22,753 nt of DNA from a virus: positions 1-22,753 of IMG/VR virus record IMGVR_UViG_3300048922_000176; one strand, 5' to 3'. The notes beneath the pieces are model-generated. The model was not told the DNA's origin and did no database searches. It saw nothing but the letters and a program-made list of their open reading frames with translations. Of the stretch, positions 2,861 through 16,428 are shown in pieces (the stretch's first letter is position 1; every line of letters starts with the position of its first letter). A program made the position numbers and the translations under genes.

Positions 2861-4296
2861 GCCGCCACCCCCTGTTGTGCGTTCGGAAGTCGGTCCACAT
2901 CCGGACCGTCCCCACTGATGTCTGCTCCGGCTCGCCGGATGAGGTCGCGCGCCTCGTCCTGCCGAAGAGGAACCTTGTCGGTCGCGAGGTACACCTTCTG
3001 CGCCGTCTCCGCGGCACGCCGCGCGATCTCGGCGTCACTCAGTCCGCCGTCCAAGGCCGCACCCTCCAGCACGTCTTCCACGGGAAGGCCCCAGCGATCT
3101 CGGACGTAGGCCTTCAGGTGGTCGTCGACCACCAGCGCCTTGCACTCGATCAGCAGCTTCAGCACCTCGGCGGTGACCTGCTGGCGTTCCCCGATCGGAG
3201 CCGGCACGAGTCGCGGCGCCGGTTCCTCCGGCCCCCAGTTGAGGTCGACGAGGTCTTCGATGACGTGCTGGTTGAACACGTCCGCGACGAACTCTGCGAT
3301 CGTGTTCAGCGAGTCCGTGAAGAACCCGCCCAGGACGTCGCTCAGCGCGTACGAGCCCTTCGAGCTGTCGCCGCCGAGGTTGAGGAAGTGCGCGAGCACC
3401 GCGCGGGCGATCTGCTCGTCGTAGTACCGGATGGCCTTATCGAGGTTCGGAAGCTGCCCCTCGACGCCGACGAACTTGAACGCGCCGCCGTGCCCCACGG
3501 AGAGGCCCGCCTCGTCGCCGGCGCGTGCCGCCTTGACGAGCTCTTCGCCGCGCTCGATCTGCGCGTCCATCCACTTGAGAGCCTCTTCGGCGTCCATGTC
3601 CGTGGGCCACTCAGGCGCCTCGAACACCGGGATGCCGAGTCCGTTGCGTTCAGCGGTGAGCGCCTGGATGCGAAGGATGCGGTCCTTCAGCAGCGCCATC
3701 TTGTAGGCCGCCCGCAGCAGGGACTCCCCGACCCAGTTGCCGCCCTCGCGTTCGTTGACGTACGCGACGAGCGCGCTCACCGGGATCGGCTCGCTCACGC
3801 CGAACTGCTCGATCGACTCGAGCCCGCCGTCGCGCGCAACCTGGATCTTCTGGATGGTCCGCGGCGGCCGCCAGGCGAGCTTGCTCAGGTTCGTGCGGCG
3901 GGTCGCATCGACGTCGTACACCTGCTCGAAAAACGAGTGCCCGTAGACGAGGCAGAGCAGCGAGAGCCGTAGGTGCTCCTTGAACGAGAACCGCCCCTTC
4001 ATGCGACGCGGCGACTCGTTCGGCTTGCCCTTCACCGGGACACCGATGTTCCGGCTGACGAAGTCTGTGACCTCGTCACGGCATCCCGCCCCGTCGAGCG
4101 CCCAGTCCGTCCGGATCACCGGCAGCGTCACCGCCCGGATCACCGACTTCACCTGAGGGTCTTCGCGGCGCATCCGGTCGAACACGTTCACCGAATTCGG
4201 CCACATCAGATCCGGGTTCGTCTCGTGAGTCTCCTCGACGATTGACGACCATCCGATGATTCCCCACGCGCCGACCTGATAGCCCTTCTCGGTCAC
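2857..4296 (-). CDS. Phage portal protein
   Basis: A 479-residue protein between the large terminase and the head protease, the invariant place of the portal. The N-terminus (MTEKGYQVGAWG), the early DRMRREDPQVKSVIRAVTLPV segment, the PRRMKGRFSFKEHLRLSL region and the C-terminal helix-rich, proline-interrupted tail (APRLVPAPIGERQQ, then KALVVDDHLKAYVRDRWGLP) fit the actinophage portal family, related to the DUF935/Mu gp29 group. Twelve copies should form the ring at the capsid vertex through which the terminase pumps DNA. The stop overlaps the protease start (ATGA), and the gene begins 9 bases after the terminase stop. Length is normal for the family. I see no frameshift. Confidence 0.9.
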   Translation of the reverse strand: MTEKGYQVGAWGIIGWSSIVEETHETNPDLMWPNSVNVFDRMRREDPQVKSVIRAVTLPVIRTDWALDGAGCRDEVTDFVSRNIGVPVKGKPNESPRRMKGRFSFKEHLRLSLLCLVYGHSFFEQVYDVDATRRTNLSKLAWRPPRTIQKIQVARDGGLESIEQFGVSEPIPVSALVAYVNEREGGNWVGESLLRAAYKMALLKDRILRIQALTAERNGLGIPVFEAPEWPTDMDAEEALKWMDAQIERGEELVKAARAGDEAGLSVGHGGAFKFVGVEGQLPNLDKAIRYYDEQIARAVLAHFLNLGGDSSKGSYALSDVLGGFFTDSLNTIAEFVADVFNQHVIEDLVDLNWGPEEPAPRLVPAPIGERQQVTAEVLKLLIECKALVVDDHLKAYVRDRWGLPVEDVLEGAALDGGLSDAEIARRAAETAQKVYLATDKVPLRQDEARDLIRRAGADISGDGPDVDRLPNAQQGVAA

Positions 4297-4305
4297 GTCG
4301 GCCTC

Positions 4306-5895
4306 CTAGAACTGGATCGTGCGCAGATTCGCTTCGCCGCGCGGGGTTCCCGCCTGGATCACACGCGGTGCCGGCGGTGCCGGCGTGGACTTCTTCGGCG
4401 ACGCCTCGGACTTGAGCACGCCCCACAGCGCCCACGTCACCGCCTGCGCGATCGTGATCGGCTTCGTCGGGTCGGACTGCTCCCATGTCCGACCTCCGCG
4501 AGGGAAGTTGCGGGTGGTGGCGAATTCCAGCGACTTGGTCACTTCGGCCTGATCGCGGTGGGGCACCATTCCGGCGTTCACCCACTCGATGAACAGAGCG
4601 TGCGCAGCGGCAATCTCATCGACCGTCATGGCGATGTACTTGATCTTCGCCTTGTCGAGTGCGGCGACCACGGCGACGGCGTTCTTCGGATCCAGGACGA
4701 CCGTGACGCGGCCGTACTCCGCCTTCAGCTTCTTCAGCATGGGAGCTACCCACATCGTTCCGCTCTGTGACCAGTGGTGCTCCACGGCGATGCGATCGTC
4801 TCCTTGGCGAACAGCCTTGCCGATCGTCGTAGCACCACCGCCAGCGGTAAGCGCCAACGCGAGGATGACCCCTTTGCCCTGCACGGATGCGGTCGAGTCA
4901 ACCTTCTCTTTCCACATATCGAGGTCGAGATCCGACAACGCCTCGACGACTTCAGCGCGCCGGGAGGGCCAGATCGACAGGCGTTGACGAGCGAACGCTT
5001 CCGGGCTCGTCTGGCCCATGCGATTCCAGGCGTCCTGCACGGTCTTCCACGCAAGGCGGATGCCGAGACCCGGGTTCCCCTGACGCCACACCTCGGGGTC
5101 GCCGAGATCGATCTTCGCGGCGGTTTCCGGATCGTCCGACCCCACCGGGGTGTGCTCAATCCAGCCCGTTCGATCGAGCCCCCCGGAGCGTCCGCGATCG
5201 CGGAGGCCCTCGAAATATTCGCCGTCCTGATCCTCTTTCGGGACGGTGCCCGTGAAGAGCACCTGCAGGTTGGGACTGGCATCCGACGCCGGGAGAAGAG
5301 CCTCGAGGATGGTCAGCGGCGAGTGCTGCGCCTCGTCGATGATCAGGACATCGAAGGAGACGCCGACGCCTGCCGCGCCGGTGCGCGTGAAGAACACGAG
5401 GCGGTTGCCGTTCTTCAGCTCGATCGCCATGTTGCCGTTGCCGGTCGAAATTCCGGTGATGCCCTGGGCGGTCTGCTTCCCGCCGCCGACCAGCTCGGCG
5501 CGGAGGATCGGAGAGGCGAGAATGATGCGGCGGGCGCGTCGGAATGCCTCTCGCGCCGTCGGCCCTTCGTGTGCCGTGTGGCCGATGAGCTTCGGCGCGC
5601 CGTCCTCGCGAGGCCACAAGTACAGATGCGCCAACTCGTACGGGAGCAGGATGTTGCCCTTGCCCTGCTGGCGCGAGACGAGGATGCCGAACTCGGTCGC
5701 CGCCCACTGCCCGTCCTCGTCGACGGAAGCGATCGCCTCGAGCGCACCCTCCTGCCACGGATCGCACACGATGTTCGCGAGGTCGCAGATGTCGAGCACG
5801 TCATCGACGAGCGTGTCGGCCCTACTGAGCGGAAGCGCCCTGACCCGAGGTTCTTGCAGCCCGAGCAGCTCGGGCTTGGGCGAGTTGATCGGCAA
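4306..5895 (-). CDS. Terminase large subunit (529 aa), TTG start
   Basis: The ATPase domain has a Walker A-like SRQQGKGN (residues 74-81) and Walker B VLIIDEAQ (183-190), followed by VLFTGTVP (212-219), the coupling motif. The nuclease half follows the linker: the second acidic motif VVLDPKN (399-405) and a late Asp475 before PITIAQAVTWAL are present. The first nuclease strand reads VILALALTA (343-351) and lacks the usual Asp. Start: TTG at 5895 has AAGGAG 7 bases upstream, within the small subunit gene, giving a 74-base overlap; no ATG is better placed. The protein drives DNA into the portal and, with the small subunit and probably the HNH protein, cuts concatemers. Confidence 0.92.
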   Translation of the reverse strand: MPINSPKPELLGLQEPRVRALPLSRADTLVDDVLDICDLANIVCDPWQEGALEAIASVDEDGQWAATEFGILVSRQQGKGNILLPYELAHLYLWPREDGAPKLIGHTAHEGPTAREAFRRARRIILASPILRAELVGGGKQTAQGITGISTGNGNMAIELKNGNRLVFFTRTGAAGVGVSFDVLIIDEAQHSPLTILEALLPASDASPNLQVLFTGTVPKEDQDGEYFEGLRDRGRSGGLDRTGWIEHTPVGSDDPETAAKIDLGDPEVWRQGNPGLGIRLAWKTVQDAWNRMGQTSPEAFARQRLSIWPSRRAEVVEALSDLDLDMWKEKVDSTASVQGKGVILALALTAGGGATTIGKAVRQGDDRIAVEHHWSQSGTMWVAPMLKKLKAEYGRVTVVLDPKNAVAVVAALDKAKIKYIAMTVDEIAAAHALFIEWVNAGMVPHRDQAEVTKSLEFATTRNFPRGGRTWEQSDPTKPITIAQAVTWALWGVLKSEASPKKSTPAPPAPRVIQAGTPRGEANLRTIQF

Positions 5896-13147: not shown

Positions 13148-13464
13148 CGCGCACCCGCCTTCTCGTCTCGGCGGGCGTCAGCACGCCACTCCGCGTGCTC
13201 TCCCTTGTCCTTCGAGCACAGCCCGAACCGGTCGAGCTTGAGCACTCGCTGACCGCAGAGAGCACACGTCGGGAACGCGGCGTGCGCCCGGTCGATGCGG
13301 GCTGACTCGCGCGCCCACTCCCGGGTGACGTGCTCACGGCGGCGATCGTCGAGCTTCCAACCCTTGTCGTTCGTCGACCACCCACCGTCACGCAGCGCGG
13401 CGACGTCGGCGGTGCAGCAGCCGAGAGCGCAGACCGCGCCCGGGACTCTCGTCGGGGCGGTCAT
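13144..13464 (-). CDS. Small zinc-binding hypothetical protein (106 aa)
   Basis: Two cysteine sets: CALGCC (residues 12-17) and CALCGQRVLKLDRFGLCSKD (about 72-91), a CxxC...C zinc knuckle. Between them a charged helix (DRRREHVTREWARESARIDR). ATG at 13464 overlaps the methyltransferase stop (ATGA), and its own stop overlaps the GIY-YIG start. Upstream open frame is shadow of the methyltransferase. Probably a nucleic-acid-binding accessory protein; unknown role. Confidence 0.7.
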   Translation of the reverse strand: MTAPTRVPGAVCALGCCTADVAALRDGGWSTNDKGWKLDDRRREHVTREWARESARIDRAHAAFPTCALCGQRVLKLDRFGLCSKDKGEHAEWRADARRDEKAGAR

Positions 13465-15209
13465 GCTGCCAACGCCCATTCGACAGCCGGCACGCCGGGG
13501 CGGGCGAGCATGATCCGCAGTGCCGCGATGGCCTGACGGTGGACGACCCCGTTGCCGCACACCTTGAGCTGCTCGGCGCGGGACAGGCCGATGACGGATG
13601 CCGTCACCCACCCGTAGGGCCAGCCCATCATCCACTCGGTCAGTTCCGGGTTCAGACGAGCCTTCCCACCCTTCCCATCCATCCGCACTGGCGACGGTGC
13701 CGGCCGGCCGAGAACCGTCTCCCATCGTGCGATTGCGCCGGCATAAGGCCCCCAGTCCGCAGCCACGCGATGGACGGCGATCTCGTCCAGCTCTCCCGCG
13801 CGCTTCGAGTTAAGGGCCTTCCTTCGGTCTGGGTCAGATGCGCCCCGTCCATGCTTGTCGCCCAGGCGGGCGGTTGGTGTCGGGAGCACCTTCACCTGAT
13901 CTATCACACGGTCCATCGCAGCGCGGAAGTCGCCACTGATCTGACCGTGCGCGGCCGGCGAAGATGAGCCGACCATCGGCGTCGGGAGGAGTTGGGCGAT
14001 CCCCGGCAGGATCGGCTCGCCCCGTCCGTTCACGTCATTGCCGTGCGCGTTCGACACCGACGGCGTCGGAAGCAGCGAGGCGATACCACCCAGCGTCGGC
14101 GAACCGTCACCGTACGTGCGTCCGGGGCCGCCGTGCTCGCCCTCGCTCGCGGTTGGTGTCGGTAGCAGTTGCACTGCTATCGGCAGCGGCATGCCCATGC
14201 CATTCCCGTTGACACGGGTCGCCTTCACCCGCTCGCGTCGCGCGAGCCAGGACTCGGTGCTCTCGCCGTCGTTCATCACGACCGTCGGCGTCGGGAGCAG
14301 CACTAGGTCGCGTGACGTGGATTCGGCACCGTCCCCAGCTTCGTCCGCACGACTGCATCCGTCAGCGTCACGTCCGAAGGCGTCGAACCGCCCGACTCTT
14401 TGAAGTCCATCACGGTCGGCGTCGGAAGCAGGGGTGCGCTCTTGGGGCCACGCGAGGATGAAGACGCGGAACCTGCCGTGCGGGGCGCCGACGTCGGACG
14501 CCGGTAGACCGCACCACTCCGCATCGAACCCGAGGTCGGCCAGGTCCCGGAGAACTGTGTCGATTGCTCGCCGAACAAGTCCTCGCTCTCGGTCGCGGAC
14601 ACGAACCGCCCGCTTACGGGATCGCGCCAGGCGAACGGCTGCTCTCCTCCACTCGACGACATGAGGTGTCCTTCCTTCGCGACGGCGGGCCGGGTTGCCA
14701 TGAAGGAACCGGTCTGTCATGCGGATGAGTTGGTCGATCCGCTTCACTTCGGCGTCGGCTTCGATGAGGTCGGGGTGCCACGGCTCACCGTCGGCAGAGA
14801 GGAGGCCGCGGACGTTCTCGATGACCACCCAATCGGGGCGGAGAGCGTCTATGGCCTTTACGTACTCGGACCAGAGGCCCGAGCGGGTGCCGTCCTGCAT
14901 GCCGCGCCGAGCTCCGGCGAGAGACACGTCCTGGCAGGGGAATCCGCCGGCGAGTACCTGCACGCGGGGGGCGGCGGTCCAGTCGACCTTCGTGACGTCG
15001 CCGAAGTTCGGGACGTCCGGGAAGTGGTGGGCGAGCACTTTTGACGGTGCCTCGTCGAACTCGCAGAACCATGCAGGCCGCGTGCCGAACACCTCGTCGA
15101 CCGCCATACCAAGGCCGCCCACGCCAGCGAACAACTCGCCCGACATGGGTTGTCCCATCGCCGCGACGATCTCCTCGACCGACATCTCGGCGAGCATCTG
15201 CGCGGTCAT
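13461..15209 (-). CDS. DNA (cytosine-5) methyltransferase with LLPTP repeats (582 aa)
   Basis: Motif I GELFAGVGGLGMA (24-36), motif IV GGFPCQDVSLAG (88-99, catalytic Cys92), motif VI VVIENVRGLL (128-137), motif VIII GAPHGRFRVFILAW (241-254) and motif IX-X LNPELTEWMMGWP (519-531) with CGNGVVHRQA (551-560) make this a C5 DNA methyltransferase. The target-recognition stretch between VIII and IX carries five copies of LLPTP or VLPTP (residues 304, 348, 379, 407, 441), a feature seen in some actinophage enzymes. ATG at 15209 overlaps the HNH stop (ATGA). It probably protects phage DNA from host restriction. A second, well-formed ORF lies inside it in another frame (14303-14662). Confidence 0.93.
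   Translation of the reverse strand: MTAQMLAEMSVEEIVAAMGQPMSGELFAGVGGLGMAVDEVFGTRPAWFCEFDEAPSKVLAHHFPDVPNFGDVTKVDWTAAPRVQVLAGGFPCQDVSLAGARRGMQDGTRSGLWSEYVKAIDALRPDWVVIENVRGLLSADGEPWHPDLIEADAEVKRIDQLIRMTDRFLHGNPARRREGRTPHVVEWRRAAVRLARSRKRAVRVRDRERGLVRRAIDTVLRDLADLGFDAEWCGLPASDVGAPHGRFRVFILAWPQERTPASDADRDGLQRVGRFDAFGRDADGCSRADEAGDGAESTSRDLVLLPTPTVVMNDGESTESWLARRERVKATRVNGNGMGMPLPIAVQLLPTPTASEGEHGGPGRTYGDGSPTLGGIASLLPTPSVSNAHGNDVNGRGEPILPGIAQLLPTPMVGSSSPAAHGQISGDFRAAMDRVIDQVKVLPTPTARLGDKHGRGASDPDRRKALNSKRAGELDEIAVHRVAADWGPYAGAIARWETVLGRPAPSPVRMDGKGGKARLNPELTEWMMGWPYGWVTASVIGLSRAEQLKVCGNGVVHRQAIAALRIMLARPGVPAVEWALAA
14303..14662 (-). CDS. Overprinted ORF in +1 frame inside the C5 methyltransferase (119 aa)
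   Basis: The frame is one base on from the methyltransferase. ATG at 14662 has AAGGAAGG 7 bases upstream. The product starts MSSSGGEQPFAWRDPVSGRF and contains FSGTWPTSGSMRSGAVYRRP (38-56), RTAGSASSSSRG and SAPLLPTPTVMDFKESGG (75-92). Its composition is ordinary, while the methyltransferase frame opposite is arginine-rich over residues 170-210. It stops 3 bases before the first in-frame LLPTP of the methyltransferase, and it has its own LLPTP copy 44 codons earlier. WPTSG...LLPTP proteins resemble stand-alone phage proteins I recall. It could be a real overlapping gene, or a relic of a former frame. Confidence 0.5.
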   Translation of the reverse strand: MSSSGGEQPFAWRDPVSGRFVSATESEDLFGEQSTQFSGTWPTSGSMRSGAVYRRPTSAPRTAGSASSSSRGPKSAPLLPTPTVMDFKESGGSTPSDVTLTDAVVRTKLGTVPNPRHAT

Positions 15210-15604
15210 ACCGCTGCTCCCGTCGGTTCGGGCGCGACGGGCGGCTCGAGCGACCATCCGCCCTCGTCGTCGAGGTACACCAGGCGACCGCCTGCCATGT
15301 ACAGGCGGACGGGTATGAGCGTGGGATCCTCCCACGAGTTGACGGCGAACCCGTCCTCACGAGCGAGGTCGGGGTGATGGTGCGCCCACCCGTGACATCC
15401 CGTCGTCCCGGAGCCGCACATGAGCAGGCCGTTCGATACCTCGTCGCCACCGCCGCGGGACTTGTACTTGCGGTGGTGGCGGGAACCGTTCTCCCAGATG
15501 CCCTTACCGCAGCGGGCGCAGGACTGACCCTCCCGCTTGTCGATCTTGATGTTCCGCTCACGGAGGGCGGAGCCGGAGTAAGCGATGGCGGGACGGTTGA
15601 TCAT
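15206..15604 (-). CDS. HNH endonuclease between two methyltransferases (132 aa)
   Basis: SCARCGKGIW (28-37) and LMCGSGTTGCHGWAHHHP (61-78) give the zinc-stapled cysteines. SRHHRKYKSRGG (41-52) supplies the HH pair, with Asn58 (EVSNGLL) and the final histidines (75-77): a complete HNH fold. ATG at 15604 overlaps the adenine methyltransferase stop (ATGA). The C-terminal third (LIPVRLYMAGGRLVYLDDEG) is a small strand-rich domain. It may be a phage HNH nicking enzyme or homing-type protein. Lying between two DNA methyltransferases it could also be the nuclease of a small modification system; the sequence does not decide. Confidence 0.85.
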   Translation of the reverse strand: MINRPAIAYSGSALRERNIKIDKREGQSCARCGKGIWENGSRHHRKYKSRGGGDEVSNGLLMCGSGTTGCHGWAHHHPDLAREDGFAVNSWEDPTLIPVRLYMAGGRLVYLDDEGGWSLEPPVAPEPTGAAV

Positions 15605-16428
15605 GATGCGTCCTCCCAATCGCCGAACGACAGAGGCTCCCAGTCCGGTTCGACCTTGAGGGATACGACGTCGGGTGTCACGTCGGCGATTCGGCGCGCG
15701 ATCTTCTCGCAGTACTCCTCGGACTGCTCGATGAGGATGGCTCGCCTACCCGCCGCCTTGGCGGCGTGACCCGTCGTCCCCGAGCCCGCCGTTGCGTCCA
15801 GAACGATCTCGCCAGGCTCGGTAAAGTCATCCATGAGGGCGCGCATGAGCGGCAGCGGCTTCTGCGTCGTATGCAGACGCGGATCCCTGCCACTTCGGTT
15901 CAGAACGATCGGCACCTTGTAGACAGGCTCGAACTCCCAGACGCCGTGGCGGCCCCCGCCGTTCCAGCGCTTGCGCCCGCGGGGATGAGCGATCGTGATC
16001 GCTTCGAATCCGGTGGCCGGGCGATCTCCGGAGAACTGGGGAGTCGACCCGACCTTCACCCACGCGCCCGTACGGACGTAGTCCAAGCCCTCAGCGGTCA
16101 GATCCTCGCGCCATAGGTGGTCAGACTCGACATCCGAGAACACCAGCACCCACCGCTGGGCGATTCTTGCGAACTCGGCCGCGAGGAAACGCCTGTCCCC
16201 GTCCGTCAGGTACTCGAACCCCAGGTCCACATTCCGGCGGACATCGGCGCCGTACCGACCACCCCTGTCGTTCGCGGCCACCATTCGACTGCTGCGCGCC
16301 GCTCCATGTACATGCTCGCTGTACGGCGGATCGCACATCACTACGTGCGCCGCTTCGATCGTCGGCAGCACATCCTCGTACTTGCCGTGATGCAACTGAA
16401 CGAACGCGTCCTCGTAGAAGAGGCTCAT
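15601..16428 (-). CDS. DNA N6-adenine/N4-cytosine methyltransferase, beta-type order (275 aa)
   Basis: Catalytic DPPY at residues 33-36 comes before the AdoMet-binding DATAGSGTTG at 211-220, the beta-class order. HTTQKP (186-191) is the usual motif X neighbour, and ILIEQSEEYC (231-240) the motif II acidic loop. The target-recognition part lies at about 105-180. The enzyme methylates an exocyclic amino group of adenine or cytosine; DPPY favours adenine but does not prove it. ATG at 16428 overlaps the upstream stop (ATGA). No cognate restriction enzyme is recognisable except possibly the neighbouring HNH protein, so an orphan, anti-restriction role is likely. Confidence 0.92.
   Translation of the reverse strand: MSLFYEDAFVQLHHGKYEDVLPTIEAAHVVMCDPPYSEHVHGAARSSRMVAANDRGGRYGADVRRNVDLGFEYLTDGDRRFLAAEFARIAQRWVLVFSDVESDHLWREDLTAEGLDYVRTGAWVKVGSTPQFSGDRPATGFEAITIAHPRGRKRWNGGGRHGVWEFEPVYKVPIVLNRSGRDPRLHTTQKPLPLMRALMDDFTEPGEIVLDATAGSGTTGHAAKAAGRRAILIEQSEEYCEKIARRIADVTPDVVSLKVEPDWEPLSFGDWEDAS

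Follow-up and report, generated by a model that had tools for sequence, protein, structure and literature searches.

A putative overlapping gene for part of a split C5-cytosine methyltransferase, nested within the alpha gene of a viral contig

The window analysed here is a 22,753-nucleotide stretch of viral DNA, covering positions 1 to 22,753 of the IMG/VR virus record IMGVR_UViG_3300048922_000176. The contig harbors portal, terminase, major head protein and RecE/RecT-like genes, together with a gene for a C5-cytosine methyltransferase, referred to here as alpha and read in frame 0. Within alpha lies a second open reading frame (ORF) in the +1 frame, referred to here as beta. On the strength of sequence comparison, this ORF is probably an overlapping gene that has a ribosome-binding site of its own within alpha. 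Its product would be the N-terminal portion of beta, the second subunit of a split C5-cytosine methyltransferase and most likely the one that recognizes DNA.

Two reading frames at the methyltransferase locus

The alpha product contains methyltransferase motifs I-VIII, with the invariant columns present, then an array of modules marked by the sequence LLPTP, and finally motifs IX and X. It is matched by the PF00145 profile (3.1e-32), by phrog_363 over motifs I-VIII (2.8e-68) and, across its C-terminal ~200 residues (379-570), by phrog_1008 (1.2e-49). In split C5-cytosine methyltransferases, the last of these families stands for the C-terminal, or "beta", half; it also matches the +1 product (1.2e-14), here with a different part of the profile, residues 37-130 aligning with profile positions 85-169. 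Since phrog_363 recognizes the front of alpha while phrog_1008 recognizes both its tail and the +1 product, the two frames appear to hold pieces of one two-part enzyme. What the original prediction had left to a database search is thus answered by the phrog_1008 match, which points to the N-terminal part of a beta half and not to a new, unrelated protein. The same family matches beta from every layout tested, that of a Paenibacillus phage included. No Pfam family, PF00145 included, matches the +1 product of the window or the betas of other layouts; neither Pfam nor NCBIfam has a model for the WPxSG domain that characterizes beta, and a search of PDB sequences with a WPxSG profile gave no homologue.

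The beta frame is much as first described, with 119 codons and with AAGGAAGG followed by 7 nucleotides and then the ATG at 14662, although the frame opens earlier too, at an ATG at 14701 that would give a product of 132 amino acids. Across the family, beta starts cluster at -32/-33 relative to the W when they are GTG and at -39/-40 when they are ATG. The window's two candidates fall at -40 (14662) and -53 (14701), and the family alignment favours the former as the probable start. The product contains the WPTSGSMRSGAVYRRP and LLPTPT motifs reported for it. The bases of alpha motif VIII (GAPHGRFRV from 14489) do double as +1 RRPTSAPRT, as had been proposed, and the +1 WPTSG shares bases with alpha GFDAEW, just ahead of that motif. 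The claim that the +1 frame ends where the methyltransferase's LLPTP series starts also holds, as the TAG stop precedes that series by a few bases. The features are collected in Table 1.

Table 1. Positions of the alpha and beta genes and of their motifs in the window
Feature	Positions	Strand	Details
alpha, C5-cytosine methyltransferase, frame 0	13461..15212	minus	583 amino acids from ATG 15212; ORF open from GTG 15335
alpha motif VIII (GAPHGRFRVF)	14460..14489	minus	frame 0; shares bases with beta RRPTSAPRT
alpha LLPTP array	13886..14300	minus	frame 0; LPTP at 14297, 14165, 14072, 13988, 13886
alpha motif IX (RLNPELTEWMMG)	13623..13658	minus	sequence motif
alpha motif X (GNGVV)	13542..13556	minus	sequence motif
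beta, putative +1-frame gene inside alpha	14303..14662	minus	119 codons; ATG 14662 to TAG 14305-14303; WPxSG domain and one LLPTP module
Shine-Dalgarno-like AAGGAAGGA, within alpha gene	14669..14678	minus	precedes ATG 14662
possible beta upstream extension	14663..14701	minus	13 codons; alternative ATG 14701, giving 132 amino acids
beta WPTSGSMRSGAV motif (WPxSG region)	14507..14542	minus	+1 frame; exactly 53 nucleotides ahead of alpha motif VIII
beta sole LLPTP module (LLPTPTVMDFKESGGSTPSDVTLTDAVVRTKLGTVPNPRHAT)	14306..14431	minus	+1 frame; similar modules in some relatives

Immediately upstream of the methyltransferase lie genes for an HNH endonuclease (15206-15619) and an N6/N4 DNA methyltransferase (15601-16383), and these genes overlap end to end.

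Comparative evidence for a coding +1 frame

Relatives were collected with a frame-0 protein scan and with scans that used an alignment of the +1 products, the latter yielding 327 viral loci (80 kept) and 119 genome loci (80 kept). The register between the two frames is almost invariant: of 139 relative pairs, 138 have the WPxSG motif starting exactly 53 nucleotides ahead of alpha motif VIII, and conservation among relatives is far beyond chance. In resamplings of the window's codons, the motif arises in ~0.1% of cases. Synonymous change is reduced where the frames overlap. Among 42 disjoint pairs, 52% of four-fold degenerate sites differ upstream, compared with 27% in the beta N-terminus (p=2e-4) and 32% in the WPxSG stretch (p=6e-7; Wilcoxon). 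For the window itself, such differences number 27/49 upstream and 3/10 in the overlap against relative L008, and 23/46 and 1/12, respectively, against L092. The +1 similarity exceeds the resampled expectation by 2.1 BLOSUM units per column in the beta N-terminus and 2.5 in the WPxSG stretch, as against 0.5 upstream, where the non-overlapping part of alpha acts as the control for relatedness. The earlier impression that both frames are constrained is therefore borne out.

Three further comparisons point the same way. In ten genomes with the system, the enzymes of the GAPHxRxR type carry the motif (in L201 as the variant TFATSG), whereas full-length single-chain PF00145 enzymes of the same genomes are without it at the corresponding place. 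The Shine-Dalgarno match averages 4.9 nucleotides at beta starts versus 2.7 at the remaining +1 start codons within alpha, a comparison somewhat favoured by the picking of the best start at each locus. Finally, the nested frame is still open in low-GC loci, namely in Leptospira, Nostoc, Halotia, Candidatus Megaera and Methanomethylovorans plasmids and in Paenibacillus phage DevRi. An open frame is telling at low GC because a long second frame is costly there, and the product of the P values over the 8 loci tested is ~1e-14.

Comparison thus confirms the +1 ORF as what appears to be a real overlapping gene under dual-frame constraint. Phages and bacteria in large numbers show double coding in a constant register, as does at least one archaeon, and an arrangement so widespread is probably old. 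The relatives do not show the broken +1 frame and normal synonymous variation that the original prediction had named as its refutation, but the ATG is not fixed among them.

A number of points weigh against this reading. The window's +1 frame has a P(open) of 0.42 under synonymous codon resampling, so openness alone is weak evidence. Most relatives were found through the WPxSG pattern, and the conservation of WPxSG is thus partly ascertained; the beta N-terminal stretch, the loci found via frame 0 and the controls are less affected. The window's alpha alone holds all of the motifs, and beta may therefore not be strictly needed. The predicted structure of beta is weak, with a predicted local distance difference test score of 67.5, and its best Foldseek matches, to the C-terminal parts of DRM (E 0.07) and then DNMT3, were not used as proof. 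The alpha structure is predicted with high confidence for much of residues 22-258 and for residues 485-575 and with low confidence for the LLPTP stretch, and because of such low-confidence predictions the role of LLPTP modules in recognition is regarded as putative. Mass spectrometry of cluster O phages did not detect the corresponding products (PMC4351075).

Layouts, modules and alternative explanations

Four layouts can be distinguished among 85 non-redundant loci, the remaining loci not being assignable by simple motifs. The order along the DNA is constant (VIII, modules, IX, X), and what varies is the point at which frame 0 takes over from the +1 frame. In layout A, motifs IX and X both lie in beta (4 loci by strict motifs). 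In layout E, IX lies in beta and X in alpha (6 loci: L084, L096, L132, L162, L168 and L184). Layout C, with 34 loci, has every LLPTP module in beta and IX and X in alpha. Layout B, which comprises 16 loci including the window, has part of the modules in beta and the other modules, IX and X in alpha. The beta stop, which may be TAG, TGA or TAA, lies in one register right before alpha's first LLPTP in 11 of the 16 layout-B loci, and it falls at the start of motif IX in 13 of the 34 layout-C loci. The share of TAG or TAA among layout-B stops (9/16, versus 40/133 for other +1 stops) is suggestive and was not used as evidence for selection. A start codon overlapping the beta stop, as would serve re-initiation, occurs in the window (TAGTG) and L013 (TGATG) and is not general among the loci. 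An indel from assembly or sequencing that breaks up one continuous beta gene was considered and rejected, because the layout recurs in many independent contigs with the stop in the same register.

Annotation of these loci is uneven. Alpha and beta are entered as two overlapping genes in the cluster O mycobacteriophages (Corndogvirus), where beta is a second 'DNA methylase', and in Kingsley and Colucci. The annotators of DevRi added the nested frame by hand with the remark 'Not called by any program'. Most records seen have only the alpha gene annotated.

Several loci depart from the common pattern. In L012 (2980-4995), alpha ends after VIII and is followed by a beta with one module, an unrelated inserted gene (3862-4359) and then an ORF with LLPTP, IX and X; this is an apparent three-piece methyltransferase, which would fit assembly from separate chains. 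Plasmids of Leptospira, cyanobacterial, archaeal, Bacteroides and rickettsial origin (L220, L222, L224 and L226-L229) carry short 'DNA cytosine methyltransferase' genes, of 225-341 amino acids where measured, with beta-like +1 sequence and no annotated beta. Chromosomes of Leucobacter, Microbacterium and other actinobacteria (L147-L164) harbor alpha-beta pairs that are compact and closely alike; these have one module, LFRTPLASD..., lack an LLPTP array and possibly represent a resident restriction-modification or prophage system.

The modules were defined by cutting both chains at LLPTP-like motifs and were grouped into families by single linkage. This gave 328 distinct modules and 24 families with two or more members, 12 of which span both frames, which shows that modules have changed frame. 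For example, the first of the window's alpha-frame modules shares 78% identity over 45 residues with a beta-frame module of L022. Modules like that of the window's beta (SGGSTPSDVTLTDAVVRTxLGxxxNPRH) are found in L013 and L030, where they belong to beta, and in L076, where they are read in the alpha frame; they form a candidate set for dating frame exchange. The original prediction had offered a true overprinted gene or a swap of frames within the LLPTP family as alternatives; each holds in part, in that the overlap is constrained and half of the module families are found in both frames.

A broader picture can be put forward tentatively, with the odds slightly against it. The DNA after motif VIII may serve as a reservoir of recognition cassettes, functional in both frames and open to shuffling. 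Recombination or small indels would swap modules between the chains and so move the switch point, giving rise to two-chain enzymes with several specificities, and a hidden subunit would go with C5 methyltransferases of bacteria, archaea and phages that together make up a large class missed by annotation.

Among the alternatives, the one that survives best, though an improbable one, is that the window's beta is a relic: the modules, IX and X would have passed to the alpha frame, alpha would have come to work alone, and the +1 stretch would have fallen into disuse. It would account for the full set of motifs and five LLPTP units in the window's alpha and for a beta without IX and X. However, at least 16 non-redundant loci share this layout and keep the frame open, and the window shows synonymous constraint against its nearest relatives. 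Somewhat less probable again is programmed frameshifting that joins the two frames into one protein, for which the conserved register of a beta stop abutting the alpha LLPTP series could speak. At most loci, however, frame 0 by itself carries alpha through to motif X, so that a frameshift is not needed. Beta also has its own start and Shine-Dalgarno sequence, the junction, where the stops TAG, TGA and TAA stand in varied contexts, shows no evident slippery sequence shared by the loci, and M.EcoHK31I offers a two-chain precedent.

It is very improbable that beta is an overprinted protein with some other role, such as anti-restriction or regulation, riding on the methyltransferase. The absence of family models and of a solved homologue for the WPxSG domain would suit such a role, but in other layouts the beta frame runs on into methyltransferase motif IX, or IX and X, and beta therefore appears to belong to the enzyme. 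A chance open frame in GC-rich DNA, without function, is just as improbable: the P(open) value permits it, and openness alone would not decide, but register conservation, synonymous constraint, the controls from the same genomes and the low-GC loci reject it, barring some unseen bias common to all of these tests.

Proposed mechanism and comparison with known systems

In the mechanism proposed for an overlapping beta gene, beta would be translated from the internal start inside alpha and would dock on alpha via its WPxSG domain. The LLPTP modules of beta would then take part in target recognition, with alpha and beta together forming the active enzyme. Because the window's alpha already has modules as well as IX and X, its beta probably supplies a further module or is required for assembly. 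The likely benefit to the phage is protection from host restriction, and the shuffling of modules may change or widen sequence specificity.

The second frame is dropped by gene callers, and a conserved subunit is consequently absent from the annotation of most records examined, among them plasmid genes from Leptospira, cyanobacteria and archaea that are labelled 'DNA cytosine methyltransferase'. Should alpha depend on beta, enzymes made from a recoded alpha-only gene would seem inactive and their specificities would be unpredictable. The locus also represents a natural system for studying long overlapping genes held under selection in both frames.

M.AquI and M.EcoHK31I are natural two-polypeptide C5 methyltransferases, and M.SssI, when split artificially, works best with the cut placed between its motif VIII and its recognition domain (PMC3404938). 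That site is close to where beta begins here. In terms of motif layout, M.EcoHK31I (YGGCCR) resembles the window in having I-VIII and X in a large chain accompanied by a second, small chain. It differs in that its IX is in the small chain, an arrangement seen in the six layout-E relatives, whereas in the window IX is in alpha; furthermore, the window's alpha carries LLPTP modules and its beta has one. Lee et al. are said to have described, in 1995, a small M.EcoHK31I gene that overlaps the large gene in another frame. M.AquI, like the window, is split near the variable region downstream of VIII, but its small subunit has IX and X, both of which are in alpha in the window. The layout-A relatives Catdawg, L017 and L117 are closer to M.AquI than the window is.

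The nearest described case is that of Corndog genes 6 and 7, and in the library searched no article on this overlap family was found beyond the one reporting them (PMC4351075). According to that article, gene 6 has its best ribosome-binding site within gene 7, the overlapping stretch appears to be coding in either frame, and reverse transcription-polymerase chain reaction revealed no splicing; in 2015 the authors were undecided between two assembled products and a frameshift, hop or intron (PMC4351075). The two genes belong to the same alpha and beta families as those of the window, with the beta start within alpha. In Corndog, however, alpha ends after VIII and LLPTP, IX and X are all carried by beta, whereas the window's alpha continues to X. 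Two products are favoured here for the Corndog-type arrangement on the comparative evidence, and the cluster O question from 2015 becomes directly testable. ShiLan also has a hidden out-of-frame gene within an actinophage methylase (PMC11855218). Its second frame is an inserted HNH homing endonuclease, whereas that of the window appears to be part of the methyltransferase; in the profile search no HNH family matched the +1 product, which was matched by phrog_1008 instead.

The multispecific C5 methyltransferases of Bacillus phages carry several exchangeable recognition units in one chain. In the window, in contrast, repeated and shuffled LLPTP units, with a putative role in recognition, are spread over two frames. 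Split C5 methyltransferases are thus known, and what appears to be new is an overlapping, mostly hidden beta gene with putative recognition modules that have been exchanged between frames.
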